Under the pieces are notes generated by a model, which saw nothing but the letters and a program-made list of their open reading frames with translations, made no database searches and was not told the origin of the DNA. 64,000 nt of DNA from Acidobacteriota bacterium (lineage in GTDB: Bacteria > Acidobacteriota > Blastocatellia > UBA7656), in contig JBBPIG010000002.1 in NCBI GenBank assembly GCA_038040445.1, positions 1 through 64,000 of the forward strand, in the 5' to 3' direction. Made by a program: the position numbers and the translations under genes. This document shows positions 1 to 47,517 of the stretch, piece by piece; the first letter of the stretch is position 1, and each line of letters starts with the position of its first letter.

Positions 1-1744
1 CCACACATATGACGTGGAGGCGTTCGCCATTTCCCCCGATGGCAGCCGCATCGTTTCGGCCTCCGACGATGGAACCCTTAGGCTTTGGGATGCTAAGACA
101 GGAGCCGAACTGGCGACCCTTGCGCGCCACACAGATGGGGTGTCGGCGTGCGCCTTTTCGCCCGATGGCAACCGCATAGTTTCGGCTTCTCGGGATGAAA
201 CCCTGAAGGTTTGGGATGTTAAGACAGGAGCTGAACTGGGCACCCTGAAGGGCCACACGAACAAGGTGACGGCGTGCGCCTTTTCCCCCGACGGCCGCCG
301 CATCGTCTCGGCTTCCGAGGATAAGACCCTGAAGCTTTGGGATGCTCAGACAGGGACCGAAGTGGCCAGCCTTACGGGCCACACGAAGGAGGTGGTGGCG
401 TGCGCCTTTTCCCCAGATGGCAGCCTCATCGTTTCTCGCGCGCGCGGCGCGGTCATCAACATCACTAAACAATCTTCTGAGATTCCCGGTGCTTCCGAGG
501 ATATGAAGATTTGGGATGCTCAGACAGGAGTCGGCTTAGCAACGCTTGCGGGCCACACAGACGTTATAGGCTATTACGACGAGTGGTTAACGTCTTATAT
601 CCAACGGGTGAACGCGTGCACCTTTTCCCCCGACGGCAGACGCATCGTTTCGGCTTCCGTGGATAGGACCCTGAAGCTTTGGGATGTTCAGACAGGGACC
701 GAACTGGCCAGCCTTTCGGGCCACACGGAGGAGGTGGTGGCGTGCGCCTTTTCCCCCGATGGCAGCCGCATCGTTTCAGGTTCCGAGGATGGAACTCTCA
801 AACTTTGGGATGCTCAGACAGGAGCCGAATTGGCCACCCTTGCGGGCCACGGGCGCGTGACGGCGTGCGCCTTTTCCCCCGATGGCAGCATCGTTTCGGC
901 TTCCTGGGGTAGCCTGATGCTTCTGAATGCTCAGACAGGAGTACAGATTTGCGAATATCAACTCGAAGCCCCGGACAAGGCTACTGCTTGGAGCCCCAGG
1001 GGCGGTAATCTAGCGGCGGCCGACCGCTTGGGCCACTTCTTGATTCTGCGGCTCCACAACGTTTCCTTCGGTCCCTTCATCGTGACCTCGTGGCGTCACG
1101 ATCCGCAACCGTCGGATTCGTCGGCGCGCCTTCATTTTGGCTGTCCGATGTGCCGGGTGTGGTCTGAGGGGGCCGCATCGGCGCTCGGCTCCGTGATTCC
1201 ATGCCCTCACTGCGGCGAGCGCGTCAAGCTCAATCCTTTTACCATCAATGCCGACTGGCGCCCCATCGCCGAAGCCTGGAAAGTGAGGAAAAGTGAAACC
1301 GGACCAGAGTACACGCAGGAAACGTACGTCATTGCTGACAGCGAATCTGATGCGGTCGATAAGACGGATGTAGGCTTAACCGCAACATCGCGTGACGAGG
1401 AGCGACGGCCATTTGATGTTTCAGAAGCAGAGTCAGCCAAAGCGGAGAATGTGGCGCTTCCAGCCGCAGAAGTGCCTTCGGTAAAGAGAAATGAGTTGAG
1501 ATCCATCGGTCCTATCGTCATAACCCCATGGCGACACAATCCGGAGCCGTTGGATTCCCTGGAGGCACCTATTCATTTTGGCTGTCCGCTATGCCGGGTG
1601 TGGTCTGAGGTGGCCGCATCGGCGCTCGGCGCGGTGATTCCATGCCCTCACTGCGGCGAGAGCGTCAAGCTCAATCCTTTTACCATCAATGCCGACTGGC
1701 GCCCCATCGCCGCAGCCTGGAAAGCGATGGTGAATGATGAATGA
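1..1744 (+). CDS. WD40 propeller protein with two C-terminal zinc-ribbon modules (5'-truncated by window edge)
   Basis: The frame is open to base 1 and reads H-T-Y-D before the first GTG at 14, so a WD40 blade is already under way and the gene starts outside the window. At least eight blades of the form ACAFSPDGxxIVSAS...LKLWDxxTGxELAxLxGHT are visible. Two blades carry irregular insertions, around bases 430-510 and 560-610. After the propeller come two copies of a module with GPxIVTxWRH, then CPxCRVWS, CPHCG, then [15 protein letters not shown], at about bases 1060-1280 and 1505-1725. The four cysteines of each copy suggest a zinc-binding treble clef or ribbon. The blades are very alike at DNA level (phrases such as gcgtgcgccttttcccc recur), which suggests recent amplification. 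It converges on the minus-strand island and shares its C-terminal module with genes there. Likely a sensor or scaffold; the ligand is unknown. Confidence 0.85.
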   Translation, partial: HTYDVEAFAISPDGSRIVSASDDGTLRLWDAKTGAELATLARHTDGVSACAFSPDGNRIVSASRDETLKVWDVKTGAELGTLKGHTNKVTACAFSPDGRRIVSASEDKTLKLWDAQTGTEVASLTGHTKEVVACAFSPDGSLIVSRARGAVINITKQSSEIPGASEDMKIWDAQTGVGLATLAGHTDVIGYYDEWLTSYIQRVNACTFSPDGRRIVSASVDRTLKLWDVQTGTELASLSGHTEEVVACAFSPDGSRIVSGSEDGTLKLWDAQTGAELATLAGHGRVTACAFSPDGSIVSASWGSLMLLNAQTGVQICEYQLEAPDKATAWSPRGGNLAAADRLGHFLILRLHNVSFGPFIVTSWRHDPQPSDSSARLHFGCPMCRVWSEGAASALGSVIPCPHCGERVKLNPFTINADWRPIAEAWKVRKSETGPEYTQETYVIADSESDAVDKTDVGLTATSRDEERRPFDVSEAESAKAENVALPAAEVPSVKRNELRSIGPIVITPWRHNPEPLDSLEAPIHFGCPLCRVWSEVAASALGAVIPCPHCGESVKLNPFTINADWRPIAAAWKAMVNDE

Positions 1745-1939
1745 TTCACAGGTGTTCAAAGATCCAGGAGGCATGAGTCGGCTGAAACGACTCCCCTTGC
1801 ATGAAGGATCCGTACGCTCCCAAACCCACCCCGGAGTCACCCGGACCGAGCGCGAGCTGCAAGATCCTGAACGTCTGCCCGAGTTGAGGAGTTGAGGTTG
1901 GGAGGTTGAGAACAGCAGCAGTTGAGTTGGGCTTCGTCG

Positions 1940-2455
1940 TCAAGCGCGAGGATCGCCGGCGTCTCCCGGGCGATAATTGATAATGTCCTCTTCGGGGACC
2001 CCGGCGTCGAACGCCTCGTTAATCCTGCCGATCTCCGAAGCATGGCGGTTGGCGCCGCCGAAGTCTTGGTAGTCGCCCTGCACAAGCTCGGGTTCAGGAT
2101 CGCCGAAATGATCTCTGATGAAAAGTTTCGTCCACTCGAGCAGCTCGTGCATATTGAAGTCGTCGATTCGCGCAACCATGTCGAGCAGCGGAGTTATGAA
2201 ATAGTCTCTGTCGCCGAGCAGCCGAAGGTTCATCTCTCGTACGAGTTGGGAACCGCCAAACCCGCAGAGTGGATCATCGGGGTCCTCGGGATACTCGCCC
2301 TCGATACCAGCCGCGCCGAACGTAAGCGCGTTGAGAGTGAACCAGTATGACTTGCCTTCGTTGCTGCCATCTTCGGGCAACAGCCACACATCCTCCCAAA
2401 CCGTTCTGCTTTCAGGAGACTCCCAAACGTGAGGAATGTAATATTTCCACTTCAT
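1940..2455 (-). CDS. Hypothetical protein (171 aa), acidic
   Basis: I do not recognise this protein. The start at 2455 (MKWKYYIPHVWE) is preferred over an upstream in-frame ATG because AAGGA lies seven bases before it. The product is acidic and rich in D, E, G and P, with no signal peptide or membrane segment. It has the phrases VWLLPEDGSNEGKSYWF and LLEWTKLFIRDHFGDPEPE. It is the most downstream gene of the minus-strand WD40/NACHT island, separated from the last WD40 gene by about 480 bases holding a decayed fragment and a palindrome. That spacing suggests it may be a separate unit. Function unknown. Confidence 0.6.
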   Translation of the reverse strand: MKWKYYIPHVWESPESRTVWEDVWLLPEDGSNEGKSYWFTLNALTFGAAGIEGEYPEDPDDPLCGFGGSQLVREMNLRLLGDRDYFITPLLDMVARIDDFNMHELLEWTKLFIRDHFGDPEPELVQGDYQDFGGANRHASEIGRINEAFDAGVPEEDIINYRPGDAGDPRA

Positions 2456-2541
2456 TGTACTGTCCTTGTTAGAAGCATCGCTCACGGCTCCGTTGATCAT
2501 GCTGCCTGGCCGCACAGGTCGGACTCGTGTCAGAACTCATT

Positions 2542-2561
2542 GCATAGTGCGAGCACTATGC
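2542..2561. repeat. Perfect palindrome in the intergenic gap
   Basis: GCATAGTGC and its exact reverse complement GCACTATGC are separated by GA, and a third half-site (CACTATGC) follows directly. There is no T-run, so a protein binding site is as likely as a terminator. It lies about 85 bases upstream of the 171-aa gene. I see nothing else in the rest of the gap 2456-2787. Confidence 0.5.
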
Positions 2562-2787
2562 CACTATGCGATGACCGAAAACCAAAGAAATCAAGCTGCC
2601 TCGCATCGCGTTCGTTGAGTTCCCGAGTTGATTGGCTCCTGACGACCATAGACTCAACGATTGATCGTGGCTCAAAACGCGAAGCGTTATGTTAGCGGCA
2701 TAGCTTTCTTGTCATGCTGCACGAAGCCCACCGCATATTTGTTGATCAACTCGTGTCTATGGCCATGGCGGCGGAACGAGACCCGCT

Positions 2788-2913
2788 TTAGAAAGCAATT
2801 CTGAACTGCTGGAAAACCAACTGAGGATATTTTTGAAAGACGTGACCCTCTGCTCGAATGAAGAGCAGCCAGTCGCGCAACTGATTGCGAAGTGTCTCGC
2901 GCGACTGAAACAT
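2788..2913 (-). pseudogene. Decayed fragment of the WD40-family N-terminal module
   Basis: A 41-codon frame on the minus strand (ATG at 2913, TAA at 2788) reads MFQSRETLRNQLRDWLLFIR followed by AEGHVFQKYPQLVFQQF. This aligns with the N-terminal module of the two large WD40 genes here ([20 protein letters not shown], then YPHLLFQQ). The frame stops just after the FQQ position, and no WD40 blades follow. It lies directly downstream of the 2940-5636 WD40 gene, so it is probably the stump of a lost paralogue. A tiny expressed adaptor is the alternative. Confidence 0.55.
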
Positions 2914-2939
2914 CTCGTTTGACCGACCTGTAGACAGAT

Positions 2940-5636
2940 TCACTGGTCCTCGACAACCCTGGTCCGCGGGGCAGCCCGAGTGTCAACGATGAACGGGTTA
3001 AACCGCAGCGGCCGATGACAGAGGGGGCAATCGCTGAGCAGGTGTGGCTCGTCCCAGGCTTCGTCAGGCAATGCGGCGCATGGCGACCGCTCGGCCACGA
3101 AATTGGCGTCGCGTGTCACTCCGGCGATCACGTCCAGGACCCGCACCGGTACGGGAAACCGCTCCTTACACCACGCGCACTGAGCGGTCATTTGGTCATC
3201 CCAGACTCCCCCTCGCGCTGCCGAGAAGAACCTCAGCATCCTTCCCGAGTGTGGAGACAGCCACAAGCGGATCGCAGTCGTGACGGGCGGACCGGGCTTG
3301 TGATTTGCCAGGCTGAGCAGGTTCAATCCTGTCTTGCCCTCAGGCACCGCAAAAGAAGCGTCGGCGCCGCAGAAGACTAACCTCGCGTAACCTCTTCCAA
3401 AGAAGTTAGCGATCTCCTCCCCCGATCTCGCGTCCCAAACCGTGATCCGACCTTGCTGAAAGGCCCCGACCACAGACGATCCGTCGCTGGTGAAAGAACA
3501 ACCTTCGGTCTTCTCGTCTCGATGCTCCACAGTCCACACCCGCGTCTCGTTACTCGATCTCCACATGATCGTCTCGGAGCCCGATGTGGACACAAAGTGG
3601 CGGCCGTCCGGCGAGTAGCGTATGTCTGTTAGCTTGTCCGAATGATGAGAATGAATCGCAAGCTGAGTTGCCGTGCCTACGTCCCAGGCTCTAACGGTCT
3701 GATCAAAATAGCCCGAAACAACGCGCCTGCCGTCTGGAGACACCGCCCACCTGGCGTTTGGACTACTGTAACCGTGGAACCTAACGAGCTTGGTCCCGTT
3801 GAGAGAGTCCCAGACCGCGAGATGCGTATCTCGCTCGAAGGACGGCGGCGACCCAATTTGGGCGAGTTGCTTTGCCAGCTCGACTGAAACCTGCTTGGGC
3901 GCTTCAGAGGAAACAAAGACGTCTCTCCCATCGACTGAGAACGCACAGGCCTTTACGCGACCCACGACCCTGGAAAGGGCAAGTGAAATCCGGCCAGTCC
4001 CGGCATTGCAGATCTGTACAGCTCCTGGCTGCTCGAGGCCCTGGGACCCGACGACTACGCGGCCACCGTCTGGCGAAAACGCGCACTCTGACACTTCTTC
4101 GTGAACGCGCGCAGGTTTTGCTACCTGCCGTCCGCTGTCCACGTTCCATATCCGAAGCGAGTGGAAGCCGCGCTCTGATGCGGGCTCAAGGCTCGCAGCG
4201 AGGTGGTCCGTCTTCGGCGACAGAGCGCAAGTCGAAATCCGAGTCCCTCCGACGTCCAACGAAGAAAGCAACTGGCCTCTATTCTCAAGCCATACTTCGA
4301 GCTTCGGGCCGGGGAGGACCCTCACAACGCGCCAGTCGTCGAGCTTCGATGCGCAACTCCACACTCCTCCTCGATCACGTTCGGGGCGCTCGGTCATTCC
4401 GCGTGCGCTTGCGTCCCACAACTTAAGCTCACCGCCCAGCGGGGACTCTCCCGCCGACGAGGCGACTTCACGGCCGGTTGGTGAATAAGCGCAAGCCCTG
4501 ATCGGCCAAGAGTGACTACCCGGACTGGCGAGGTCTGCGCCTGTGCGAGAGTCGATGAAGAACAGCCGGGAGTCGGAACTCGCCACCACCCTGGCGCCGT
4601 CGGGCGCGAAATCACAATGAGAGATATGCCCACGCGGCCCGTTGACGCTCGCTATCGCTGCGCCAGTCTCTGAGTTCCAGGTTTTTATCTCAATTTGCCC
4701 CGACGAGTTTGCCAACGAGATGATGCTGCGGCCGTCACTGGAGAAACAGCAGCCGACTACACGACCGTTGTGCCCGGAAAGCGTAACCAATGTCTGGCCG
4801 GAAGTGACATCCCATACGCGAAGCGTTTGGTCATCAGATCCTGAAACCAGGCGGGAACCATCACGAGAAAACGCGCCGCAATTGACCAGGTTTTCGTGCC
4901 CGGTTAGTCGGAAGACCTCCGTGCGGCTCTGAACTTCCCACAGCGTCAGCTCACTGACCGGGGCCCTCAACAGGAAACCGCTGTCCCCGCCGCCAGAGAC
5001 GGCAAAGCGCCCATCCGGCGAAAACTCGCATACCGTCACTCTGTGTCTTTGTTTTCCAAGCTCGCCGATCTCGGCTCCGGCTGTCGCGTCCCACAGCTTC
5101 ACCGAACCTTCCTTTTCACCGGAGATAATGAGACTGGAGTCGGGTGAAACGGCCAGGGCGGTGATCCAGTTGTCCCGATTTACGCCGCCCACATCGCTGA
5201 GTCCCCGCAAGTAGAGCAGAGCAGTGCGTATGTCTTCGGCTTTCCGGTCACGCCGGACACTCATGGTTACGACCTGTTCACCGTTGAGCGCGTTCCACAC
5301 GGTGATTCGGCCATCGGCCGAGCCGGACACCAACATCGTTCCGTCCCGCGAGAACGCGCAGGCTCCAATCTCTTCGCTGCCGACCTCCAGAGTCATCAGG
5401 CACTGCGCGAGGCTGTCAGGTTTGTTGATCCACCGAAGCCATGGGCGCTTTTCAAGTCCCGTCTCAAACCGCTGCCGCGCCATTTGCGCCGGCAAGGTCG
5501 AGTCGGGGTGGTTGGCCACTTGCTGAAAGAGAAGGTGAGGGTACTCTCGTAGAATGCGGCTCTCGCCGCGAATGAACCGCAGCCAGTCTTGCAGTTCTTC
5601 GCGCTTCGAGTGCTGACGGATTTGCTCTTGTGACAT
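2940..5636 (-). CDS. Large WD40 protein with island N-terminal module and C-terminal zinc ribbon
   Basis: The start at 5636 ([18 protein letters not shown]) matches the start style of the 8373-11420 paralogue; an upstream ATG at 5648 is possible. Residues 1 to about 80 form the shared module ([42 protein letters not shown]). About 14 WD40-like blades follow, enough for two propellers. The C-terminus has C-x2-C (CAWC) and CPLC pairs followed by [12 protein letters not shown], a second kind of ribbon that is also found alone in the 12165-12401 gene. No catalytic domain is visible. It lies downstream of the NACHT ATPase and probably supplies ligand sensing or scaffolding to it; that role is inferred. 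Confidence 0.85.
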
Positions 5637-5731
5637 CCAGACCCTCAACCCAGCAGCCTTTCAGTCGGAGGGAACCTATTTCACACGGGGACTAATATCA
5701 CACCACGATCCACCTACGCGGCCGTCCGTTT

Positions 5732-5854
5732 TCATCTCTCACCCAGCCATGCCTTAGCAATCGGCGCCCAGTCTGCGTTGATGTGACTCTCGCCGCTAAT
5801 GAACCGTAGCCATTCTTGCAACTCATCGCGCGCCGTTTGATATGGAGGGGGCAT
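5732..5854 (-). CDS. 40-aa chimeric microgene joining the N- and C-terminal WD40-family modules
   Basis: A short frame starts at ATG 5854, four bases after AGGAAGG, and encodes ARDELQEWLRFISGESHI followed directly by NADWAPIAKAW. The first half is the start of the shared N-terminal module; the second half is the end of the shared C-terminal module (FTINADWRPIAEAWK in the other genes). Everything between, meaning the propeller and the cysteines, is missing. This looks like an internal deletion of a former WD40 gene that stayed in frame. It sits just after the NACHT gene stop (5880). It could be dead, or a small competitor of the full-length proteins. Confidence 0.5.
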   Translation of the reverse strand: MPPPYQTARDELQEWLRFISGESHINADWAPIAKAWLGER

Positions 5855-5879
5855 CTCGCCTTCCTGTTCCGGGAGACTT

Positions 5880-8312
5880 TTATGCTGGGAACTTCTCGAG
5901 CGCGCGGCGGTAGTCCTCTTGAAGCTCGTACACACCGCCATGGATCGTCTTCGCGTCCTCGCCCTTTCCCGACGTGATCACCGAAACGTGAGTACATTTG
6001 GCTTCGAGAAACTCAAAGTCAGTCAGCGTGGCGTGAAGCTCGTCCCACTTCTCGCCATACGTCTGCTGATACGGAAGCTCAGACAGCTTCCTGATGTTCG
6101 GAGTCTTCTTCTCCTTCTCGAATAACTCCTGACTCGCGAAGTACTCAGCTAGACTCGAATGGCGCGCGCCCTTGTCATTCCCCGCCAGGAAGGTCTCTTC
6201 CACTACCTCGCGAAGCTGACGGTGGTAGAAACTCATCAGAGATGCGCCGTCTGCGCTACGCTCGGCCAGGTATGGCTCAAGGTCGAAATACAAACGCGAC
6301 CAGACGATCACCGGCAATCGCTCTTCGGGCGGCGTGTGCTTCGCGCGAGACTTGAAATCCCCAAGCACTTCTTCGTCTCGCGATAGCACGTCGAGTAGCT
6401 CGTCTTCGGTTAGGCCGTTCTTTGACGCAGCCAGATAGCCCAGGCTCCGCGACACCACGACCTTGCCGTGGTTGGCATCCAGCGAAAGCCGTTCAAACAA
6501 CTGACGAATGATCCCTGGGATGTCCCCGGCCAGGTCGGCTATCGGGCTGTAAGACTTCCACCGCCGCGCTTCCTCAAATGCCAGCTTCAAATAGAGCGGC
6601 ATTCCACCTTGCTCTCTACTCCCGCTACTTTCGCCCGTAGGTCTGGCGGAGGCGTCGAACATGCGCAGTACTTCATTCTTCTGTGGCGACTGCAGCGTTC
6701 TGTCCGCGTCCGCCAACCAGGCTTCCAGCAATTCGTCTGCTTCTGCTCTTGGCATCGGTTCGAGTTTCAACAGGTTCGACGGCAGCTTTCTATCGAGCGC
6801 AACCTTGCACTCGCCAGGAAGCGTAGAGACGACCAGGTGTACGTGCTCGGGTAGCTCGCCGGGAAGCCAGATCAGATTGCGGGCGTGATCGGCGTCCGAT
6901 AGTTGATCGAGCGCATCGAGAAAGACGGCCAGCGGCTTGTCCGGCCGCGCTAGAGCGAGCCGTTGCGGCATCTCTTTCACCAGTTCTTTGTATTCGGTTG
7001 GAATCGTCGTCTCGTCCCCGCCGTAGATCCGAGTCACCTGGCGGCAAAGACTTTCAACCAACGACCGCGCATCGGATGATCCGGGAGTCGCCCCGATGAA
7101 TCTCGACACAAGCACGGCGTTAGGAATCCGCGATGCGCAATCCGCAATCGCCTTCGCCATCAAAGCAGACTTTCCAGAACCGGACTCGCCCCACACCGCG
7201 AGCGGATGACGGTCTTCCCGCGCAACGTAATCAAGGATCGTTTTGAGAATAGACGCTCGACCGATGAATGACTTGGCGCGGTTCTCAGCGAAGTCCTTGT
7301 GATCGGCGACTTCTTTTTCGAGGGCCTCGATCTTTTCGAGCCGCGCGATCTCTTCGAGGATCACTGTTGCCAGCCGTCGCCAGACGTCAAAGCACAACCC
7401 GGTGCTTGCGCTCTCGTCCTCGAGCAGCCTCATGCACTCTTCAAGGTTTTCCGGCAAAACGCCGATATGATTGGCCGTGATACCACCGCCAGTCCAGCTC
7501 GCGGTGTAGTGATGAAAGTTTCCAGGCAGCCGCTTTTCGACCCGGCCTTTCAAACTTTTTAACTTGTCGCTCGCCTGGCGGTCCAACGACCCGGTTTCGT
7601 CCACATCGATAAAATCTCTAGCGCTCTGGCTTTCCGGCAGCGCGCTGATAGCGCGAAAGAAGCAGAAGACATGTTCGTTCGCGTCGCTAACGGTCATCGC
7701 ACCCGCGTCGATCTCCTGTTCCGTCGCGGAATCTTCGTACTTCTTGCGGTCGCCTTCCGCCAGGTTCATTCCCTCGATTGCTTTGAGTAGTATTCCGCGC
7801 AGTGGCCGCTCGATCTCCTTCTCCCACGTGTTGAAGTCAGCAAACTCACTTTCTTTTCTTCGCGGCTGGAGTCTGTAGACGGGAGGCTTGGCGTTGTCAT
7901 CGCATCGATACCAACCCTTGTTGTTTTCGGGCTGCTGGTCCGTCCAGAGGAGAAGTTCTCTCTCCTCCGGCGTGACGCGCGGGAGAATGGCTTCGAGCTC
8001 GTTAGCTGGAATTTCAGCGGGCAACGGTCGCCAGCCATACCGATCGCCGAGCAGCACAATGAAGTTCGGCCGCGGCGAAGAGCGCTGTGACCGTGAGACC
8101 TCGTCCAGGCAGATCTTCATGGTCTGCTGGTCGAGCCCGGCTTCGTCGCGCACTCCCCATCGCAGATCTATCGCCTGGAAGCGACAGCCGTGCTGCGTGC
8201 AGAGTTCGCGCAGCCGCGGAAAGACATACTTCTGAAGCGCGTTCCGCTCTTCTATCAGGTCGCTGAAAGTAGAGCTGACGAAGACTCGAAATGTTCTTGT
8301 AGTTTGTCCCAT
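5880..8312 (-). CDS. DUF4062-NACHT (STAND-class) ATPase
   Basis: Residues about 5-95 (TFRVFVSSTFSDLIEERNAL, then RFQAIDLRWGVRDEA and IVLLGDRYGWRP) fit DUF4062. A P-loop GESGSGKS lies near residue 375 and a Walker B-like LAVFLDALDQL near 462, followed by helical regions typical of NACHT/STAND switches. The C-terminus (FYHRQLREVVEE, YFASQELF, SELPYQQTYG, FLEAKCT) resembles the stretch that precedes the propeller in NACHT-WD40 fusions such as TEP1/NPHP3-like proteins. Here the protein stops at 810 aa with no propeller, and separate WD40 genes lie on both sides. The start at 8312 has GGAGGGG upstream. Likely an oligomerising ATP-dependent switch in defence or signalling; the trigger is unknown. 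Confidence 0.88.
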   Translation of the reverse strand: MGQTTRTFRVFVSSTFSDLIEERNALQKYVFPRLRELCTQHGCRFQAIDLRWGVRDEAGLDQQTMKICLDEVSRSQRSSPRPNFIVLLGDRYGWRPLPAEIPANELEAILPRVTPEERELLLWTDQQPENNKGWYRCDDNAKPPVYRLQPRRKESEFADFNTWEKEIERPLRGILLKAIEGMNLAEGDRKKYEDSATEQEIDAGAMTVSDANEHVFCFFRAISALPESQSARDFIDVDETGSLDRQASDKLKSLKGRVEKRLPGNFHHYTASWTGGGITANHIGVLPENLEECMRLLEDESASTGLCFDVWRRLATVILEEIARLEKIEALEKEVADHKDFAENRAKSFIGRASILKTILDYVAREDRHPLAVWGESGSGKSALMAKAIADCASRIPNAVLVSRFIGATPGSSDARSLVESLCRQVTRIYGGDETTIPTEYKELVKEMPQRLALARPDKPLAVFLDALDQLSDADHARNLIWLPGELPEHVHLVVSTLPGECKVALDRKLPSNLLKLEPMPRAEADELLEAWLADADRTLQSPQKNEVLRMFDASARPTGESSGSREQGGMPLYLKLAFEEARRWKSYSPIADLAGDIPGIIRQLFERLSLDANHGKVVVSRSLGYLAASKNGLTEDELLDVLSRDEEVLGDFKSRAKHTPPEERLPVIVWSRLYFDLEPYLAERSADGASLMSFYHRQLREVVEETFLAGNDKGARHSSLAEYFASQELFEKEKKTPNIRKLSELPYQQTYGEKWDELHATLTDFEFLEAKCTHVSVITSGKGEDAKTIHGGVYELQEDYRRALEKFPA

Positions 8313-8372
8313 AACTGCCCCTCCAGCGATTGGCGTACTTCATTACTCGGTGCGAAAACTGGCGCAACTAAT

Positions 8373-11300
8373 TCAAATCCCCACCGGGCGAGCGGGCCTT
8401 CTTAGTATCAACCGTTTCCACCAAGGTAACTCCTTCCACCGGGCCAACGCTCGCTGGTATTCCAGGTTGAGACGCGAAGCACTATCAGGATTTGCTTTTC
8501 GGTGCGGGATGGGGATGTCAACGGCCAACTCTCCTGATACTTCCTTCGCGGGTACATCAATAAGATGGGCAACAAGTTGTCGGAGAGAAGCTTGCTCGGC
8601 TTCGGTTATGCCTGCTTCACCGGCGATGTTCTTTGGCAAACTCTTGCGAGCTTTGGGCGACAAGCTTGCACCGGTGCTTTTGGTTCCGCTTCTTTTGGTC
8701 GAAGCGCGATTAGGCCTTCCCTTGAGCAGTCGCCAATCCATTTCAATTGTAAAAGGGTTAAGCTTCACCCGAGTTCCGCATCCGGCGCAAGAAAGCTCCG
8801 AGTCTATTGCCGACGCTAACACGTCGCTCCACTTCCCGCAGGCCGGACAGTTTAGAGCATGATCGAAAGCGGGTGCGGGTGTTGCTTCTTCCGCTCCTTT
8901 TCTTCGCCGCCGCTTTCGCCGGCGTGCAGTCACAATCAGTGGCCCGCGAAGAATGTTCTCCAGAGTGAGAAAGTGAACTTCGCCGGAGGAACCCCCTGCA
9001 GCGAGTTGCAAGCCGTCGGGCCTCCAGGCCAGTGACCCTACATGTGCTCCTCCTTCGTAGTCGCAGGCGATTCTTCCGTTTGCAATATCCCAAACCCTCA
9101 ACTTCCCCCTTCCACCCGAGCAGGCGAGTAGCCTTTGATCCGGGGAGAACGCCAGCGGGTATGATCCCTCAAATGTCGCCAGCTCCGCGCCGTTTTCGCC
9201 GCTGCTTAGCCTAACAACGCCGTAGCCCGAAGAAGACGCCGCCATCGTTCCGTCAGGCGAGAATATGCAACTGTCATCGCGGGAACTACTCCCTCCGAAA
9301 TCGCGAGAACCTCGCCCCCCGAAATCGGTAGCCCCGCCGAAAGTGACCAGTTCTTTCCCGGTCGTTGAATCCAATATCACACCCCCTGCAAGTACGCGCT
9401 TGCCGTCGGGAGAAAAATGGCACGGCGCGCACCCTTTTTCCAGTTCCAGTAGAGGAGCGCCGGTCGCCCCATTCCGAATCATCAACCGGCCCCAAGCGCT
9501 GCTGCACAGCAGATGCTTCCCGTCAGCAGAGAATTTAGCGACGAATTGGAGGTGTTCGGGTGAGTTCCCAAGGCTGAGGCGCATCAATTCCGTCCCCGAA
9601 GAGGCATCCCAATACCTCAATGTGTGATCGCCGCAGCCGGCGGAGACGATCTGCGTGCCATCGACCGAGAATGCACATTGCCGCACCGTGTCTTCGTGTC
9701 CAGCCAGATCAGCCAGGAGCTCGCCCGTCGCCGCGTCCCAAAGTTTTATTTCACCTTTCGAATACTCACCGCCCCAGGACAAAACTTTTGCGCCGTCAGG
9801 TGAAAAGGCGCAGCCTCCTATTCCAATCTCATGGCCGGTTAGCGTAAGGCGAGCCGTCGCGCTTCGGGTGTCCCAGAGTTTGAGGGTCTTATCGCCTGAA
9901 GCCGAGGCCAGCCGGCTGCCGTCGGGCGAGAAAACGAGCGCCGACACGAATTTCGAGTGGCGCTCCTCGATTTCGTCTGAAGTAACTGCCGAGGCATTCC
10001 AGAGCTTCAAAGTTGAATCGCCGGATGCCGACACGAGCAGGCTTGAATCAGCCGAGAAGGCTATGGCTCGGATTGTCGAACCGTGGCCCTCGAAGGTTGC
10101 TCGTTCAGCACCAGTTTCCGTGTCGCGTAACTTGATTGTGTGGCGATTAACAAAGGCAAGCTTTGTCCCGTCGGGCGAGAAAGCGAACTTCTCGATCATA
10201 TCATCCGTCATCACCGAGTCACGCTGGCTTGAAACGGAAGCCAGCTCGCGCCCTGTCTTCGCATCCCACAGCTTCAACTCTGCGCTTTCGCGGTCGAACG
10301 AATGCGCCAGTGAAACTATGCGGCTCGCATCTGGTGAAAAAGCACAATCGACCATCAACAGCCAGTGCCCTCTCAGCGACTCTATGAGTGTGCCGGAGGT
10401 TGCGTCACGTAACTCTACCAGGTTGTCCGATCCTACAAGCACCTGCCGGCCATCCGGCGAGAACCTGCAAGCAGCACCCAGGCCCGGTTTTGCCGGGAAC
10501 TCGCAAACCTTGGCGCCCGACTCGACATCATAAACTCGCACCGCGCTGCCCCATGCCCCGACTATCCGCTTGCTGTCGCGCGAGAAGCTACAGCCGTCTA
10601 CCTTTTCGCCTGTTAAGGACAAGATCTCTTGATAATGCGCCGAGCGCTGTTCGAATATCTTCAAGGTGCTTGCAGACATATCGCCCCACACGGCAAATAT
10701 CCTCCTGCTGTCGGGTGAAAAATGACAAAGGCCGATCTCCTTTTCGCCGCTTGCCGCAAACAACGCGCGAGCGCTCCTCACGTCCCAGACCTTAATCTCG
10801 CGGCTTGGGTAAAACTCGCCTCCGGCGGCAAGGATTTGCGCTCCGTCGGGCGAGAACCGGCAGGAGTTTACCCTTGTGCTTTTGGCGTCCGATATTTGAA
10901 ACGTATGCAAGCAGACGCCAGTCATCGCATTCCACAGCTTGATTACTTCCCGGGTATTTCCTGCATAGCTGCTGTTTGACTTTGACAGTATGAGAGAACC
11001 GTCGGGCGAAAAGTCTGCCGACTCGACCGTCCCCTCATGGCCTGCCAACACAGCCAGCTCAGACCCGTTTCCCGCGTCCCAAAGTCTAAGCGTGCCATCA
11101 CCTGAACCGGAGAGTATGCGTGCTCCATCCGGCGAGAACATGCAACAGGTAACCCCTCGCTCGTGGCCCGTCATCGTAGCCAGACACGGCGAGGCTGCGT
11201 GAACCTTATTGGCCCTGCGTAGCCAAGGGCGCTTCTCAAGTCCGCTGTCGAATTTGTTCTTCGCCTCTCGCGCGGGAGCAGTCGAGTCAGGTTGGTTGGC

Positions 11301-11420
11301 GGCCTGCTGAAAGAGCAGCGCCGGGCGCTCGCGCAGGATGTGACTCTCGCCGCGAATAAACCGCTGCCAGTCTTGCAACTCCTCGCGGCCGGATTTCGGA
11401 TGAGTTAGGTTTTGCGACAT
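8373..11420 (-). CDS. Large WD40 protein with island N-terminal module and C-terminal zinc ribbon
   Basis: The start at 11420 ([18 protein letters not shown]) is chosen because it matches the paralogue at 5636; an upstream ATG at 11510 would overlap the preceding gene. The shared N-terminal module ([44 protein letters not shown]) is followed by about 14 WD40 blades. Then come [12 protein letters not shown], a basic linker, and CPACGKWS / [19 protein letters not shown], the four-cysteine module. A basic 110-aa tail ends in [15 protein letters not shown], unlike the other family members. The stop is 60 bases before the NACHT start, so co-expression with it is likely. Confidence 0.85.
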
Positions 11421-11478
11421 TCTTCTCAACGTTCCGCGGTCCTCTGGTGGTCGCTGCCCGCTGCTAATGAGCTTGTCG

Positions 11479-12147
11479 TTATCCCTTTCGTCTGCTCCAT
11501 GCCTTCGCAATCGATCGCCAGTTCGAGTTGATGGTGAATGGGTTCAGCTTGAGACGACTGCCGCAGCTCGGGCAAGGCAGTTCTGTGCCCAGCTCAGAAT
11601 CCCGCACCGGCGACCATCGGCGGCACGCAGGACATCCGGCGCCGAGCCGCTTTGCCGATACCCACGGCAGTCTCGAAGAGCCCTTCCACGCGGTAACTAC
11701 AGCCGCTCCATTGATGATGTGCTCCGCCCGCAGAAGCACGATGGTGCTGCGTTTCGTGCCCAGGGCCAGGCGGCCATCGGCGCTGACAGCTATTGCTCCA
11801 CTCAAGTCTCCGATCCAACGGCAAATCGTTTGCCCCCTGTCGAGGTCCCATAACCTGACCGACCCATCATCAGAGCAGGTGGCAATCCGGCAGCCATCCG
11901 CAAGAAAGCTGGCTCGGACCCTTCCGGCATGTCCTTCTAGTGTCGCTAGATTGGCCCTTGTATCAGAATCCCAGATCCTCGCTGTTCCATCGAACCCGCC
12001 GGAGAGAATGTATCTACCATCTGGCGAGAACATGCAGTCGCCCACTGCCGCCGAGTGACCAGTTAGCGTCGCCAGCCTGCTTCGAGACGCGGGTTGAATC
12101 GCAGCGGCGGCTGGCAGCTTGGACACATGGTACCGGCAACGCATCAT
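11479..12147 (-). CDS. Short WD40 protein with C-terminal zinc ribbon
   Basis: The 222-aa product begins with about three or four WD40 blades ([20 protein letters not shown] and similar), too few for a closed propeller. It then has the joint [10 protein letters not shown] and the four-cysteine module CPACRRWS / [23 protein letters not shown]. It lacks the N-terminal ELQDW module found in the large paralogues. It may pair with another propeller, or be a shortened copy that survives mainly for its ribbon. It starts 17 bases after the end of the 78-aa ribbon gene. Confidence 0.75.
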
Positions 12148-12164
12148 TGTCAGAGTGACCAGCT

Positions 12165-12401
12165 TCAGTTGATGACGAATGGATTCTCTCGGTTATCTAC
12201 GACGAACGGATTATATTTTAGAGGCTCGCGGCAAAGCGAGCAGCATGAGAGTAATCGTGGCTCGTCCCAGGCGTCATCGGGCATCTTCATGCACGGCGAA
12301 TCGCCGGGCCCCAGGTTTGAGATCGTGGCAATCCCGCTGATTTCATCGAGTACCAGCGATGGCAAGTCGTCGCCGGTAAGATTTTCAAGAGTCACAGCCA
12401 T
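12165..12401 (-). CDS. Small zinc-ribbon protein (78 aa)
   Basis: The second half (SPCMKMPDDAWDEPRLLSCCSLCREPLKYNPFVVDNR) aligns over its length with the C-terminus of the 2940-5636 WD40 protein ([36 protein letters not shown]). The first half is acidic (LENLTGDDLPSLVLDEIS) and not recognised. It is therefore a free-standing copy of the second ribbon type in the island. It lies between the broken FHA/RING-like gene and the short WD40 gene on the same strand, with short gaps. Probably a small partner or adaptor. Confidence 0.6.
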   Translation of the reverse strand: MAVTLENLTGDDLPSLVLDEISGIATISNLGPGDSPCMKMPDDAWDEPRLLSCCSLCREPLKYNPFVVDNRENPFVIN

Positions 12402-12442
12402 AGTGTTAACTCTCCGCCGAAGAGCGCAGTGCAGTGAGCCTC

Positions 12443-13002
12443 TCAGTCTTCAGGGCGCCACTCAAACTGTGCGTGCAAGTCTGTGGCTTGCGAACACACC
12501 GCGCACGACTCACTCTGCGTCCAGCACGGTTCATCTTCTGACTGATGATGCCAGCTCTCACACTTTGGGCAACACACGGCCTGGGTGAACGGTTCGATAC
12601 ACCGCTCACATTGCGGGCATATGACCGGCCGGTCTTCGTGCGTTCCCGAGTTAGCCCCCTGTACTTAATCACCATCGGCGGGCTCTTAGCAGCGAAGTAG
12701 AACCGCTTCGTTCTGATCCGAATCTCGTCGCGATCCTGGAGCAAACGAAACCGATCTAACAAGGCACCGCCGTTGACTCGAGTTTTGGCCTGGCTGCCCG
12801 CGGTCAATACCCAAAGCGGATTTGCGGTCCACAGCGAACCCATCGGTTCCTCGACTCGCACGACTGCAACAGTGCGCTCACTACGATCGTCGCGTTGTCG
12901 GGGCGCCAAATCGCGCGCGTCATAGTCAAGGAAGTTGAACCAGTCATCGAGCGGCTTCACCGTCCATTGACCCGCTTCGACTTGCATCCACAAGTGGGCC
13001 AT
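12443..13002 (-). pseudogene. FHA-like/RING-like protein gene with a frameshift
   Basis: From MAHLWMQ at 13002 the first frame encodes an FHA-like core (TRVNGGALLDRFRLLQDRDEI). After about residue 115 that frame turns into unrelated sequence and runs on to 12406. In the neighbouring frame the expected ending appears: EDRPVICPQCERC, AVCCPKCESWHHQ, CWTQSESCAVCSQATDL, FEWRPED, stop at 12443-12445. This aligns residue by residue with the intact paralogue at 14143-14676. The two frames meet near the five-base C run (G run on the coding strand) at 12655-12659, so a one-base indel there explains the break. It could be a true pseudogene, a sequencing error, or slippage. Confidence 0.8.
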
Positions 13003-13034
13003 CGCTTAACACCTGAATTGGACGTCCGTTGGCT

Positions 13035-14141
13035 TCATATCTCATAGTGGTGCTCAGCGCTGCGTTCATCGATGCTGAACACATCGCCCGGCCGTAGCCC
13101 GAGGCTGCGAAGTGAGCGCGCCAACGCATTGCGCGAAACAGTGGCCGCATTCAGGCGTTCCAGCAAGTCGAAGCCCGTTGCGATCATCCGTTGCCCGCAC
13201 CTACCGCACTTTCTTTGCCTGTCACTCAGCGAACACTCGAGCCGCAACAGTGAGCGTGTCTCTCCGCAGCCTGGACAAGTCAGCCGCTTCACAAACGGCT
13301 TGCCTTCAACTTGCAGCCCCGAACCGTTTTCGCCCGCCGCCGCCGGGACGAGACTCAAGGCTTGCTCGAGGCTGATCTCATCGATTGACCGATTCAGTCT
13401 TTCGATCTGCCAGACTTCGTGACCTGTGAAGCGGCAGTTTGGATTGCGGCTAAAAGCCGTGACATAGTGTTTGTGGTATGACGCGTCAATCAACACTTGC
13501 TTACTTACCGCGGCTCGATCCATCTGTCCGGTCAAAAGTTTTTGACACTCGATCGCTTGAAGCGACGCCGCCAATGCGCCAAGGCTCGACGGAGCATTCG
13601 TAGCTGGCGCGTTCGAGGTGAAGCCGAGGCAAGCATAGGTCTGCTCGAGCGCGTCATAGTCGCGATCGTCCCACGCACATTCTAGGCACGGTGTATCAGG
13701 TCCCGGCACGTAGACGTTGACTCTTGCGAGCAAGCCACCCGCTTCAACACCGGCGTCAATCAGCGGAACCCCAAGCCGCCACGCGAACTGATTCACTCGC
13801 TGACGAGCAATGCGCGAGTCAAGACACGAAAGAACCACGTCCGCTCGCAGCTTGCCCAGAGGTACGCGCTCCACTGCATCGGCGATCGCTTGAACGCGAA
13901 GTCGCGGGTTGATTCGTTTGAGCCGGCGAGCTTGAACGACCGCTTTTCGATTGCCGACGTCGTTCGGCGTTATGTCTTGCGTCTGAAGATTCGACGATTC
14001 GTAGATATCCCTATCGATCAACGCGACGCTGAAGACCTGTTGCATTCGCGCAAGGTGAGGCCCCAGATGCGAGCCTATGTTGCCGCCCGCGCCTACAACC
14101 ACGACGCTCTTCTGTGAATCACTGGAATTGGCTACTCGCAC
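13035..14141 (-). CDS. E1-like (ThiF/MoeB/HesA family) adenylyltransferase with C-terminal zinc ribbon
   Basis: Residues 13-45 show the E1 nucleotide-binding fold: VVVVGAGGNIGSHL, then LIDRDIYESSNLQTQ. The usual NLxRQ is NLQTQ here, so the conserved arginine is replaced. VLSCLDSRIARQRVN and PCLECAW follow. A candidate catalytic cysteine lies in YACLGFTSNAP, before the GALAASLQAIECQKLL helix. At about residues 284-318 CPGC and CGRC pairs form an extra zinc ribbon. The start is GTG 14141, one base after the stop of the upstream FHA/RING-like gene, whose end supplies the GAGGAG ribosome site. This implies tight coupling. Such enzymes adenylate a small protein or peptide C-terminus; no ubiquitin-like substrate is seen here. 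Confidence 0.88.
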   Translation of the reverse strand: MRVANSSDSQKSVVVVGAGGNIGSHLGPHLARMQQVFSVALIDRDIYESSNLQTQDITPNDVGNRKAVVQARRLKRINPRLRVQAIADAVERVPLGKLRADVVLSCLDSRIARQRVNQFAWRLGVPLIDAGVEAGGLLARVNVYVPGPDTPCLECAWDDRDYDALEQTYACLGFTSNAPATNAPSSLGALAASLQAIECQKLLTGQMDRAAVSKQVLIDASYHKHYVTAFSRNPNCRFTGHEVWQIERLNRSIDEISLEQALSLVPAAAGENGSGLQVEGKPFVKRLTCPGCGETRSLLRLECSLSDRQRKCGRCGQRMIATGFDLLERLNAATVSRNALARSLRSLGLRPGDVFSIDERSAEHHYEI

Positions 14142-14142
14142 T

Positions 14143-14676
14143 TCACAGCTCCTCGGGCGTCCATTGAAAGCCCGCCGACAGATCGGTTGGCTGAGCGCAC
14201 AACGCGCAGACTTCGGAATAGGTCCAACAATTCAACTCTTCAGTCTGATGGTGCCACACGCCGCACCCTGGACACTTGACGGCGCTTGAGGCGTTCTCAA
14301 TCCCCTGCTTGCAACGGGGACAGAACAAGGTTTGACCGGAACCCGGCAACTCCTCGACTCTGGCAAGGCTTTCAGTTGAGAAGTAGAGACTGCCGGCGCC
14401 GGGGATGTGAATCTCGTCGCGATCCACGACGACCCGCATTCCCGCGGCGAGGGGCACGCCGTTTACGCTAACGCCCGAGCGCGCCGCGGCGACTAGCACC
14501 CAGTCAGGGCTCTGGGCGCCACGAGCGCTCACCAGCAAGATGCTGGAGAGCGCGTCGCCCTCGCCGAGCGGGCGGCGAATCGGTTGGGGTGGATTAGCCG
14601 CCAACGTGAACGCCTCGTGTCCGAGCGGTAAGACCGCCCATCGTTCCGCCTCGTCTCTTACCCATAGATGAGCCAT
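14143..14676 (-). CDS. FHA-like domain plus RING-like zinc-finger protein
   Basis: The start at 14676 (MAHLWVRDEAERW) matches the MAHLW start of its broken paralogue and follows GGGGAA. Residues about 40-95 carry an FHA-like beta core (SGVSVNGVPLAAGMRVVVDR, then DEIHIPGAG). Residues about 110-170 carry CPRC, CPGCGVWHHQ, CW, and CALC, with spacing like a cross-braced binuclear RING/treble clef. Prokaryotic RING-like fingers have been described beside E1-like genes, and here the E1 gene follows after one base. A phosphopeptide-reading E3-like or adaptor role is plausible but inferred. Confidence 0.75.
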   Translation of the reverse strand: MAHLWVRDEAERWAVLPLGHEAFTLAANPPQPIRRPLGEGDALSSILLVSARGAQSPDWVLVAAARSGVSVNGVPLAAGMRVVVDRDEIHIPGAGSLYFSTESLARVEELPGSGQTLFCPRCKQGIENASSAVKCPGCGVWHHQTEELNCWTYSEVCALCAQPTDLSAGFQWTPEEL

Positions 14677-14805
14677 ACATTCCCCGAACATTGATGATCG
14701 CGCGTCGATTCGCGGCGTCAGAAACGCAGGCCCAACATCACCGTTAGCATTGCGCCCTTCGCCCTGCGACAAGAGCGTTTATCCGGCCTATGCTCATAAC
14801 GATCA

Positions 14806-15465
14806 TCACCGGTCGCTGGTGATCACCGGGCTCGGCTTACGCCGCAGGGCGAATCTGACTCCGCGCCGGCGGTTGGTCTGAACCAGATACGGGTTCACGC
14901 CTCCGCGGTCGAAAAGCTCCTTGCGCAGCCGGTAAACATTTTGAGTGATCGCTCGCTTGCTTACCGGCCTGCCCGACTGCCGGGTCAGATACTCGGCGAT
15001 TTCCTTGATCGTCTTCCATCCCACAAATGCGTCCTCGCTCAACCCGTTGTCGATTGAAAGAGCAGTCATCAGATCCGCCAGCGTCGGAGGAAGTGTAAAT
15101 TGCTTGCCGCCATCGATTCGGATGTCGGCCATCCCATCAGGGCGGGCTTTGATCTCGAGCAATGCCGTTCCCGATTCCGCAAGATACCGAAGCGGCTTAT
15201 TGCTTTTCGGTTGCGGTTCCCGGCCAGAGATTGGACCAACATCGCCCGCGAGGTCTTTGGCGCCCTGATCGAAGATCTCCTCCATCATCTTCAAGAGTTG
15301 AAACATCTCGTACTCAATGAAGGTAGCATTCATCTCGGCTTTGCTGATTCTGTTGACCAGGTTCTTGTAGCGCCGAGCAAGGCCGCGCATCAGGATGAGC
15401 GCTTCTGTGTGAGGCCGCGGCCCCGCTTGCTTGACGTTCTGGATTGTATCGCCTGGTCTTTGCAT
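14806..15465 (-). CDS. Winged-helix (OmpR/PhoB-type) DNA-binding regulator
   Basis: The C-terminal third (ISKRAITQNVY-like stretch: VSKRAITQNVYRLRKELFDR, then PYLVQTNRRRGVRFAL) fits the winged helix of transcriptional regulators of the Trans_reg_C type. The N-terminal part is helical (NLVNRISKAEM, EYEMFQLLKMMEEIF) with no receiver aspartates that I can place. I chose ATG 15465 (MQRPGDTIQN), which has GGGAA upstream; the frame stays open to 15651, and ATG 15339 (MNATFIEYEM) is an alternative. It lies at the head of the minus-strand island, 130 bases before the FHA/RING-like gene, and probably controls it. Confidence 0.65.
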   Translation of the reverse strand: MQRPGDTIQNVKQAGPRPHTEALILMRGLARRYKNLVNRISKAEMNATFIEYEMFQLLKMMEEIFDQGAKDLAGDVGPISGREPQPKSNKPLRYLAESGTALLEIKARPDGMADIRIDGGKQFTLPPTLADLMTALSIDNGLSEDAFVGWKTIKEIAEYLTRQSGRPVSKRAITQNVYRLRKELFDRGGVNPYLVQTNRRRGVRFALRRKPSPVITSDR

Positions 15466-15901: not shown

Positions 15902-16270
15902 GTGAGCGCGGAAAGCCGAAAGCTCTATACGTTCGTTGAACTCCCGGTGTTTTCGCGTCAGCTTGAGGCACTGGCTTCATTCGAGACGCTCTATGCAATT
16001 CAGGCTGATCTACTGGCTGACCCGGAGCGGTGGCCGATGATTAGGGGCACAGGTGGCGCGCGCAAGGGGCGCATCGCTGATCCGCACAGCTCACGCGGAA
16101 AAAGCGGGAGCTTCCGTTACATCTATCTGTATCTTGAAGATCGCGGCCGCATCTTTTTGCTGCTATTCTTCAGCAAGAACCAGCAGTCCAACATTTCACC
16201 GGAGCAGGTTCGGCAGGTTGCTACTGCGATTGCGAGGATCAAAGAGGCGAACAAAGGGGATGAGTCATGA
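15902..16270 (+). CDS. RelE/HigB-type toxin
   Basis: The 122-aa product has the layout of RelE/HigB ribosome-dependent mRNA endonucleases: helices at the start (FSRQLEALASFETLYAIQ), a glycine/arginine loop (MIRGTGGARKGRIAD), then GKSGSFRYIYLYL and FLLLFFSKNQQSNISPEQV. The start is GTG 15902 with AGGAG nine bases upstream. It overlaps the antitoxin start by four bases (ATGA), giving toxin-first order as in higBA. Acts in the cytoplasm. Family assignment is by pattern only. Confidence 0.75.
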   Translation: MSAESRKLYTFVELPVFSRQLEALASFETLYAIQADLLADPERWPMIRGTGGARKGRIADPHSSRGKSGSFRYIYLYLEDRGRIFLLLFFSKNQQSNISPEQVRQVATAIARIKEANKGDES

Positions 16271-16617
16271 AGCCCACCAATAAGAGAGAAAACAGGAAGC
16301 TGAAGACAGACAAGTACATGAGCCATGAGCTGTTTGGCGAATTGATTCAATCGCTTGACCAGGCGTTGCAATTCTCCCGCGGCGAACAGATCAACGCTCG
16401 AATCACTGTGCTTCCAGCGCCGCCCAAGCCGATGTCGAAACGGGAAATCATCGATCTGCGCCAACGGTTGAACCTCTCGCAAGCGGTGTTCGCGCGCCTG
16501 CTCAATGTCAGCGTCAAAACCTTGCAGGCATGGGAACAGGGTCTGCGCGTGCCCAGCGACGCCGCCCTGAAATTGCTCAGCGTTGCGAACCAGCATCCCG
16601 AAGTGCTTCTTTCCTGA
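16267..16617 (+). CDS. HigA-type antitoxin with HTH domain
   Basis: The 116-aa product has a Cro/Xre-type helix-turn-helix at about residues 58-105 ([20 protein letters not shown], then [17 protein letters not shown]). This fits HigA-like antitoxins, which neutralise the toxin and repress their own promoter. The start overlaps the toxin stop. The N-terminal 50 residues are charged and probably contact the toxin. The downstream AAA/RyR gene starts 58 bases after the stop. Confidence 0.78.
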
Positions 16618-16675
16618 CGGGGCCCGGCAAGTACGATACGAAGCACACGACCACCCATCGAGCCTCAGAGCACAT

Positions 16676-19445: not shown

Positions 19446-20000
19446 TTGATACGCATCGGAGTGACGGGACATCGCATACTGGCCGAACCGGACAAGATCG
19501 AAGCAGGCGTGGAACAGGCGATTCGGCGAATCGAGCAGGCGTTTCCGGGAGAGCGGCTGACAATCATCTCGGCGCTCGCGGAAGGCGCCGACCGCATCGC
19601 GGCCCGTCGCGTCCTTGCGCGGGAGGGTGCCGGACTGATCGTGCCCTTGCCGCTCCCCAAGTCTGATTACTTGAGCGATTTCAAATCCGAAACGTCGCGT
19701 GCGGAGTTCTTGAGTTTGCTGCAACGCGCCGATCAAATAGAGGAGATGTCTTCAGCGGCAACACGAGAAGAGGCATACGAAGCGGCGGGAGAGTACGTAT
19801 TGAACAATGCGGACGTGCTCATAACAGTCTGGGATGGCCAGAATGCTCAAGGCGAGGGCGGCACCGGCGAGATAGTCGCGCGCGCCAGGGTTCGGGGGCT
19901 CGCCATCGCCTGGGTCCACGCAGGAAATCGCGAACCGGACACTGACCAGCCCACCACGCTTGGCGATGAGCAGGGGCGTGTGACGTTTGAGAACATCTAG
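19446..20000 (+). CDS. SLOG-family Rossmann protein (predicted nucleotide-derivative sensor)
   Basis: The 184-aa product starts MIRIGVTGHR, followed by ISALAEGADRIAARRVL and a C-terminal VLITVWDGQ ... GGTGEIVARARVRGLAIAWV. The GxTGHR start and the GGTxE loop are features of the SLOG (SMF/DprA-LOG) superfamily, proposed to sense or cleave nucleotide ligands. The start is TTG 19446 with AAAGGGG upstream. It lies 49 bases after the AAA-RyR gene on the same strand, and the pair is probably one functional unit. The gap carries a small hairpin (CAAACTGAAGTTTG). Confidence 0.78.
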   Translation: MIRIGVTGHRILAEPDKIEAGVEQAIRRIEQAFPGERLTIISALAEGADRIAARRVLAREGAGLIVPLPLPKSDYLSDFKSETSRAEFLSLLQRADQIEEMSSAATREEAYEAAGEYVLNNADVLITVWDGQNAQGEGGTGEIVARARVRGLAIAWVHAGNREPDTDQPTTLGDEQGRVTFENI

Positions 20001-47413: not shown

Positions 47414-47517
47414 TGGTTCTGAGTGTGAATTGAAGGGCGATGTAGCCCCGACAGGCTGCTCTGCATCGTTTCTTGCAGACTGATCCTTCAGCTTTCGCGC
47501 AACAACGGAGAAGTAGC

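Follow-up and report, generated by a model that had tools for sequence, protein, structure and literature searches.

The locus described here most probably (probability ~0.75) consists of two overlapping things: a conserved operon for conjugation of a ubiquitin-like protein (Ubl) and of Pup, and an inserted TEP1/NWD1-like split STAND family. We analyzed a window of 64,000 nucleotides (positions 1-64,000 of contig JBBPIG010000002.1, here C2; assembly GCA_038040445.1, Acidobacteriota bacterium), in which the locus occupies positions 1-15465. Two other contigs of the same genome, C37 and C17, enter the analysis, and C37 carries the back end of the operon. All genes listed in the initial annotation of this DNA are present and in place. 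The features are:

2..1744, plus strand: 3' half of a NACHT-WD40 gene with two ribbons, running off the contig start and probably continuing on C37
1940..2515, minus strand: 191-aa ORF within the inserted block, without Pfam or NCBIfam match
2806..2889, minus strand: debris, N-module fragment of a WD40 gene
2940..5648, minus strand: WD40 protein with N-module and variant ribbon tail, predicted split STAND sensor subunit
5777..5830, minus strand: debris, N-module fragment of a WD40 gene, in frame with a ribbon-tail fragment
5880..8312, minus strand: DUF4062-NACHT ATPase, predicted split STAND switch subunit (Pfam domains; C17 and C37 alignments)
8373..11510, minus strand: WD40/ribbon protein with N-terminal adaptor module (N-module 11163-11387, ribbon 8718-8948), predicted split STAND sensor subunit
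11479..12147, minus strand: short 222-aa WD40/ribbon protein with a pair of Pfam WD40 stretches and a ribbon at 11494-11712
12165..12401, minus strand: lone zinc ribbon, probably a leftover NACHT-WD40 tail (match to the fused C17 protein)
12443..13002, minus strand: second FHA/RING gene, FHA part and RING part in different frames
13035..14141, minus strand: E1-like activating enzyme, ThiF fold plus C-terminal zinc ribbon (PF00899 3.7e-30)
14143..14676, minus strand: FHA/RING protein, predicted E3 ligase (AlphaFold pLDDT 90; RING cysteines invariant)
14806..15465, minus strand: operon-linked regulator of winged-helix type (Trans_reg_C 0.004, below cut-off; homologues adjoin the operon elsewhere)
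16583..19396, plus strand: RyR-domain AAA protein (RyR 1.5e-21), member of a separate RyR/SLOG/NACHT module

Conservation of the operon

A conserved Ubl and Pup operon opens with the regulator, FHA/RING and E1 genes, located at 13.0-15.5 kb. C37 encodes an E2, an unnamed gene, a beta-grasp Ubl, a JAB protease, an ARC/Mpa-type ATPase, a Dop-like enzyme, Pup, a PafA-like enzyme and a ClpA/B-D1-like ATPase. The initial annotation had suggested that E2, Ubl or JAB genes might lie beyond the window, and this is where they were found. Orthologous loci were identified in several phyla (16 from a scan with E1, and in addition G143), with operon members in Acidobacteria, Verrucomicrobia and Proteobacteria. 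These loci come mostly from draft metagenome assemblies, many of which stop inside the operon; where the contigs reach, the order FHA/RING-E1-E2-unnamed gene-Ubl-JAB-ARC ATPase-Dop-like-Pup-PafA-like is nearly fixed. E2 directly follows E1 in all 17 other genomes, with no WD40 or NACHT gene between them and a gap of 15-288 bp in the 16 measured loci, L047 being counted from gene order. The winged-helix call for the regulator has a weak Pfam match, although the gene itself is kept beside the operon in several other genomes (L032, L042 and others). A search for plasmid spread of E1 returned zero matches among 72,556 plasmids.

The Pup ORFs, with GGQ or GGE ends, sit between the genes for the Dop-like and PafA-like ligases. 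The ARC/Mpa-type ATPase matched TIGR03689 at 2.5e-99 and carries OB domains (PF16450, PF17758); both it and the Pup ligases score under the NCBIfam equivalog cut-offs. No 20S proteasome was found in the genome itself or in the other operon genomes searched. The genome's own matches were HslV and one weak Ntn-type match, and the other genomes yielded HslV only (8 genomes) or no match at all (3 genomes). Single PF00227 matches were considered as 20S subunits and rejected, being HslV by motif or by an HslU neighbor. Two ordinary Pup genomes had 20S subunit genes beside PafA.

Residues and predicted folds of the Ubl branch

Residues D43, K66, D108 and C171 of E1, together with the cysteines C289/C292/C312/C315, are invariant among 12 sequences, as is the H93-P94-N95...C104 signature of E2 (12 sequences). 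The JAMM residues of JAB (E194, HxH and SxxD) are invariant in 7 sequences. Canonical E1s carry an arginine after the NL motif; in our alignment the E1 of the operon has none. The Ubl has an invariant A-G in 11 sequences, which then either end or continue with a short variable tail, a pattern suggesting that its C-terminal Gly would be processable. The AlphaFold model of the Ubl (pLDDT 87.5) matches the folds of SUMO and Caldiarchaeum ubiquitin at about 5e-5.

In the FHA/RING protein the RING cysteines are invariant. Its model (pLDDT 90) gave FHA domains as best fold matches, followed by RING-H2. The Prok-RING_1 match (8e-5) lies under the Pfam cut-off, as does that of E2, and the confident fold supports the RING assignment. 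Judged from this model, the protein is a probable E3 ligase. Two such genes had been annotated initially; both are present, but the second is frameshifted between FHA and RING. A ThiF/MoeB-like cofactor role for E1 was rejected because E2, RING, JAB and Ubl genes share its operon; the initial view of E1 and RING as parts of protein conjugation holds.

Together, the operon proteins would form two tagging branches. Trimming by JAB would expose the ...A-G end of the Ubl, and E1 would adenylate the Ubl and hand it to the E2 cysteine. The FHA/RING protein would then direct the charged E2 to selected targets, which may be phosphorylated. In the second branch, the Dop-like enzyme would deamidate Pup and the PafA-like enzyme would join it to lysines. 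The ARC-type ATPase may then pull tagged proteins, either for remodelling or to feed a protease other than the 20S proteasome.

Split STAND genes and their debris

Sequence comparison places the DUF4062-NACHT and WD40/ribbon genes in one split STAND family, accompanied by gene debris. Pfam identified DUF4062 (5.7e-11), NACHT (2e-10) and an NWD1-like winged helix in the NACHT protein of the window. On C17, a fused NACHT-WD40-ribbon protein shares 53% identity with it across 820 columns. The WD40 proteins with CxxC tails measure 1045, 902, 222 and 576+ aa. When aligned to the fused protein on C37, NACHT residues 1-773 correspond to 1-687, while the 902-aa WD40 protein starts at 713 and the 1045-aa protein at 709. 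This alignment to successive parts of one protein agrees with the earlier description of the STAND ATPase as split. The switch ATPase and its propeller sensors are encoded by separate genes. In the fused relatives a helical adaptor connects the two halves; both large sensors have retained it, so that a single NACHT probably serves as dock for several sensors. The PADLOC models for defense STAND proteins (Avs/AVAST and others) matched the NACHT protein only at E 0.014 or worse.

The lone zinc ribbon is 39% identical over 54 aa to the ribbon of the fused C17 NACHT-WD40 protein (3.7e-12); the gene noted initially therefore exists, but is probably a leftover tail. Such fragments suggest turnover of the sensor genes.

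NACHT/WD40 genes between E1 and E2 were found only in this genome, where they were most likely inserted in the middle of the operon. Over its first 435 bases, the plus-strand WD40 gene matches other contigs only at the start of C37 (78-84%). Most likely it supplies the C-terminal half to a fused DUF4062-NACHT-WD40 gene that begins on C37; this would place C2 and C37 next to each other.

Alternative readings of the locus

Were C2 and C37 not adjacent, the operon would exist as two pieces acting in trans, with the STAND genes merely flanking the E1 piece. No exact overlap was found between the contig ends and no read joins them, as this reading would expect. However, both contigs start within one WD40 repeat family, in matching direction, that a DNA search did not detect on any of the genome's other contigs, and the pieces are contiguous in relatives where contigs reach; we consider the arrangement very unlikely. 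Even less probable is that the E1 and FHA/RING genes are remnants of a locus being lost, with no working pathway. The frameshifts in the second FHA/RING gene and in the NACHT-WD40 gene of C37, the lone ribbon and the N-module fragments fit such decay, but it is confined to extra copies and sensor genes. E1, the first FHA/RING gene, E2, Ubl, JAB, ARC, both ligases and Pup have open frames, and the catalytic residues of E1, E2, JAB and RING and the Ubl tail are kept.

The initial annotation had proposed one system of WD40/NACHT and E1/RING proteins, linked by shared four-cysteine modules. In its integrated form, propeller sensors on the split STAND switch would control E1/RING (and Pup) conjugation. 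The genes share a strand and are tightly packed in the window, and a NACHT-FGE gene lies upstream of the operon in L037. The RyR-AAA gene adjoins the operon in two other Acidobacteria (L039 and L043, the latter alone also with NACHT-WD40), and its presence next to the operon in three genomes is above a simple chance estimate. Against this stands the uninterrupted run of E1 and FHA/RING into E2 in 17 of 17 other genomes; the outcome that had been named as marking separate systems, E1 and FHA/RING genes occurring in relatives mostly without the WD40/NACHT genes, was largely obtained. Moreover, RyR-AAA occurs without the operon in 7 of 7 other genomes, there beside SLOG and/or NACHT/WD40 genes (NACHT/WD40 in two), and the neighboring STAND genes are of differing types. 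The proposed cysteine link found no support: the tails of the WD40 proteins are simple zinc ribbons without clear relation to RING, against which their hhalign probability is only 43%. Their match to the E1 C-terminal ribbon (79%) was rejected as a link, being cysteine-driven on shallow alignments. We regard integrated control as unlikely, and as somewhat less likely still an immune or stress pathway in which exchangeable propellers on the split STAND would trigger Ubl and Pup tagging and the targets would then be extracted at the expense of ATP, no 20S proteasome taking part. RyR-AAA was also rejected as a core operon part, since L039 and L043 are the only other loci where it adjoins the operon; the similar gene in L046 encodes an ATPase of sigma-54 type. 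We thus favor a conserved operon overlapped by an inserted STAND family, and since RyR-AAA lies beside the operon more often than the chance estimate, the two may not be wholly unrelated.

Relation to known systems

A single sentence published in 2020 (PMC7159879) mentions coupling of Ubl and Pup conjugation; this coupling, Planctomycetes included, is common to that report, as far as the available part of it goes, and the operon described here. In that part we found no gene list, no FHA-RING E3, missing 20S proteasome or STAND block, and no description of members in Acidobacteria, Verrucomicrobia or Proteobacteria. Our literature search, which did not extend to Burroughs et al. 2011, where an earlier description is possible, found no gene-by-gene account of the operon and none of the FHA-RING E3, the missing 20S proteasome, the wider range or the STAND insertion.

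With the Pupylation locus (PMC2588565, PMC3511204) the operon shares ARC, a Dop-like enzyme, Pup ending in GGQ/GGE and a PafA-like enzyme, but it carries E1, E2, RING, Ubl and JAB genes as well and is without the 20S proteasome, which is typical of many Pup loci though absent from some known ones. Bil (BilABCD), CBASS type II and 6A have the E1, E2, Ubl and JAB logic in common with the operon, which differs in its separate small E1, RING E3 and Pup branch. The PADLOC E1-E2 models matched E1 (best 7e-11), these models and BilD being matched only in part, and the conserved gene order showed no CD-NTase. The STAND genes share DUF4062, NACHT, the NWD1-like winged helix and WD40 with TEP1/NWD1-like proteins. 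In contrast to these, the window has its switch in one gene and its several sensors in others, and a zinc-ribbon tail is present; the fused form occurs on C37 and C17. Eukaryotic CHFR and RNF8 also combine FHA and RING in one protein, with the FHA and RING-H2 folds being predictions here, but the present protein, a predicted ligase, is much smaller, and nothing indicates that the FHA-RING combination was inherited as a whole from a shared ancestor.

In the split STAND block, a NACHT-WD40 receptor can be seen divided into a switch and sensors with genes of their own. Ubiquitination and pupylation are usually seen as two separate inventions. With both cascades in one conserved operon in several phyla, it can be asked whether the two tags share targets and, as the operon was found without a 20S proteasome, what tagging does when no proteasome receives them.

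Location and conservation of the tagging operon

The window is the beginning of contig C2, which opens with a plus-strand WD40/double-ribbon gene. A minus-strand run between 15.5 and 2.9 kb begins with a regulator, FHA/RING1 (a predicted E3 ligase), E1 and the frameshifted FHA/RING2. Next come a lone ribbon and two WD40/ribbon proteins (222 and 1045 aa), and the run ends with a DUF4062-NACHT ATPase and a WD40 protein of 902 aa. Beyond this run, the window contains:

15902-16617, plus strand: two small genes that read as RelE/HigB-like and HTH antitoxin-like, located between the regulator gene and RyR-AAA
16583-19396, plus strand: RyR-AAA, a RyR-domain AAA protein
19446-20000: SLOG/LOG-like protein (by reading), after RyR-AAA
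22183-36258: putative Type I CRISPR locus (by reading) with a cas3-like gene and a cas4-cas1-like fusion, repeat-rich at 33.7-36.3 kb
47473-49929: caspase-like domain with TPR-like repeats after it (by reading)

The initial annotation had noted that E2, Ubl and JAB were absent from the window and had proposed that either the substrate is atypical or such genes lie outside it. These genes were located in the same genome on contig C37, which carries E2 and the later genes of the operon. Searching the 297 genomes of the phylum with E1 returned two close orthologues, and a profile scan of public genomes identified 16 orthologous E1 loci in Acidobacteria, Planctomycetes, Verrucomicrobia, Proteobacteria and others. 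Note that one of these 16 loci comes from the same genome as G110 of the phylum set. Six-frame annotation revealed a single gene order: FHA/RING, E1, E2, an unnamed gene, Ubl, JAB, ARC, Dop-like, Pup and PafA-like. The unnamed gene between E2 and Ubl (working label "CesT") had no Pfam match. An AAA protein is an extra operon gene in some loci, and in one of them (L025) it is placed before PafA. The spacing between E1 and E2, measured at 16 loci, was 15-288 bp. At one Planctomycete locus, the operon is preceded by a gene for a NACHT-FGE-sulfatase protein (L037, 5107-7398).

Contigs C37 and C2 probably join at their starts, judging from the sequence of the two ends. Both starts fall in WD40 repeats, and in a DNA search of the genome the 435 bases that open the window matched the C37 start at 78-84%. 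The same bases had a further match within the same window gene and a weak match in the 1045-aa gene (74% over 94 bases). Apart from a frameshift in the C37 part, the reading directions at both ends are consistent with one fused DUF4062-NACHT-WD40 gene. Joining the ends would place E1 and E2 on the same strand, about 20 kb apart. The join is one that we infer, because no exact overlap of the C2 and C37 ends was found. Between the C37 NACHT-WD40 gene and E2 lies a gene for a TrkA-N and RyR protein (L056, 3683-5503); RyR domains are recurrent in the surroundings of the STAND genes here.

Conserved residues and predicted folds of the tagging components

Conserved residues and predicted folds provide evidence that the parts of the operon can work. 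E2 has an HPN motif and Cys104 that are invariant in 12 sequences, and in JAB the residues E194, H260xH262 and S287xxD290 are invariant in 7 sequences. The nucleotide-site residues of E1, its Cys171 and four C-terminal zinc cysteines are likewise invariant (12 sequences), while the arginine found after NL in canonical E1s is changed. Ubl has an invariant A-G (11 sequences) followed by a variable tail; AlphaFold predicts a beta-grasp fold, with SUMO and Caldiarchaeum ubiquitin as the nearest structures. For the AlphaFold model of FHA/RING (pLDDT 90), FHA domains were the top matches (Foldseek probability 1.0, E about 0.01), and RING-H2 domains came next. Pup is represented by small proteins with GGQ/GGE ends, encoded between the two ligase genes.

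A 20S proteasome was not found in this genome or in the 11 operon genomes checked with PF00227. This genome encodes HslVU and one weak Ntn-type match. A single PF00227 match was present in each of 8 operon genomes and was assigned to HslV, as judged by motif or an HslU neighbour; the other 3 had no PF00227 match, one of them being an 85% complete assembly. No conserved docking motif was detected at the ARC C-termini. Ordinary Pup ligase loci of the same phylum (L082 in G006 and L083 in G057) offer a natural contrast with the hybrid operon: 20S subunit genes adjoin PafA there, and no genes of the E1 operon lie nearby. Pup loci without proteasome genes were noted in 2008 in Plesiocystis and Rhodopirellula (PMC2588565).

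The split STAND ATPase and its relation to the operon

The STAND ATPase of the window is split, as the initial annotation had claimed: the NACHT and WD40 proteins match successive parts of one fused C37 protein. Residues 1-773 of the NACHT protein align to residues 1-687 of the fused protein, and the 902-aa and 1045-aa proteins align from its residues 713 and 709, respectively. The split is therefore located at the helical module between the winged helix and the propeller. Contig C17 of the same genome encodes another fused protein, which shares 53% identity with the NACHT protein of the window over 820 columns:

C17, 3937-9837 (L058): fused DUF4062-NACHT-WD40 protein, 1966 aa, with ribbon and helical tail

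Fragments of the ribbon and of the N-module, the helical adaptor at the N-terminus of the two large WD40 proteins, suggest loss or turnover of genes in the STAND block.

RyR-AAA is present in 8 of the 297 genomes of the phylum. In all 7 other genomes it occurs without the operon, adjoined by SLOG in five and by NACHT or WD40 genes in two; a homologue of the SLOG/LOG-like protein of the window adjoins RyR-AAA in several other genomes. RyR-AAA adjoins the operon at L039 and L043, and at L043 NACHT-WD40 does so as well. For RyR-AAA beside the operon at 2 of 8 loci, a simple chance estimate is 2.5e-7, or 1.6e-4 if the genes are confined to 200-kb islands. L039 and L043 are not independent cases, because they are related (E1 61% identical). 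The simplest reading is that RyR-AAA and NACHT-WD40 genes are found near the operon through common siting in conflict-gene islands.
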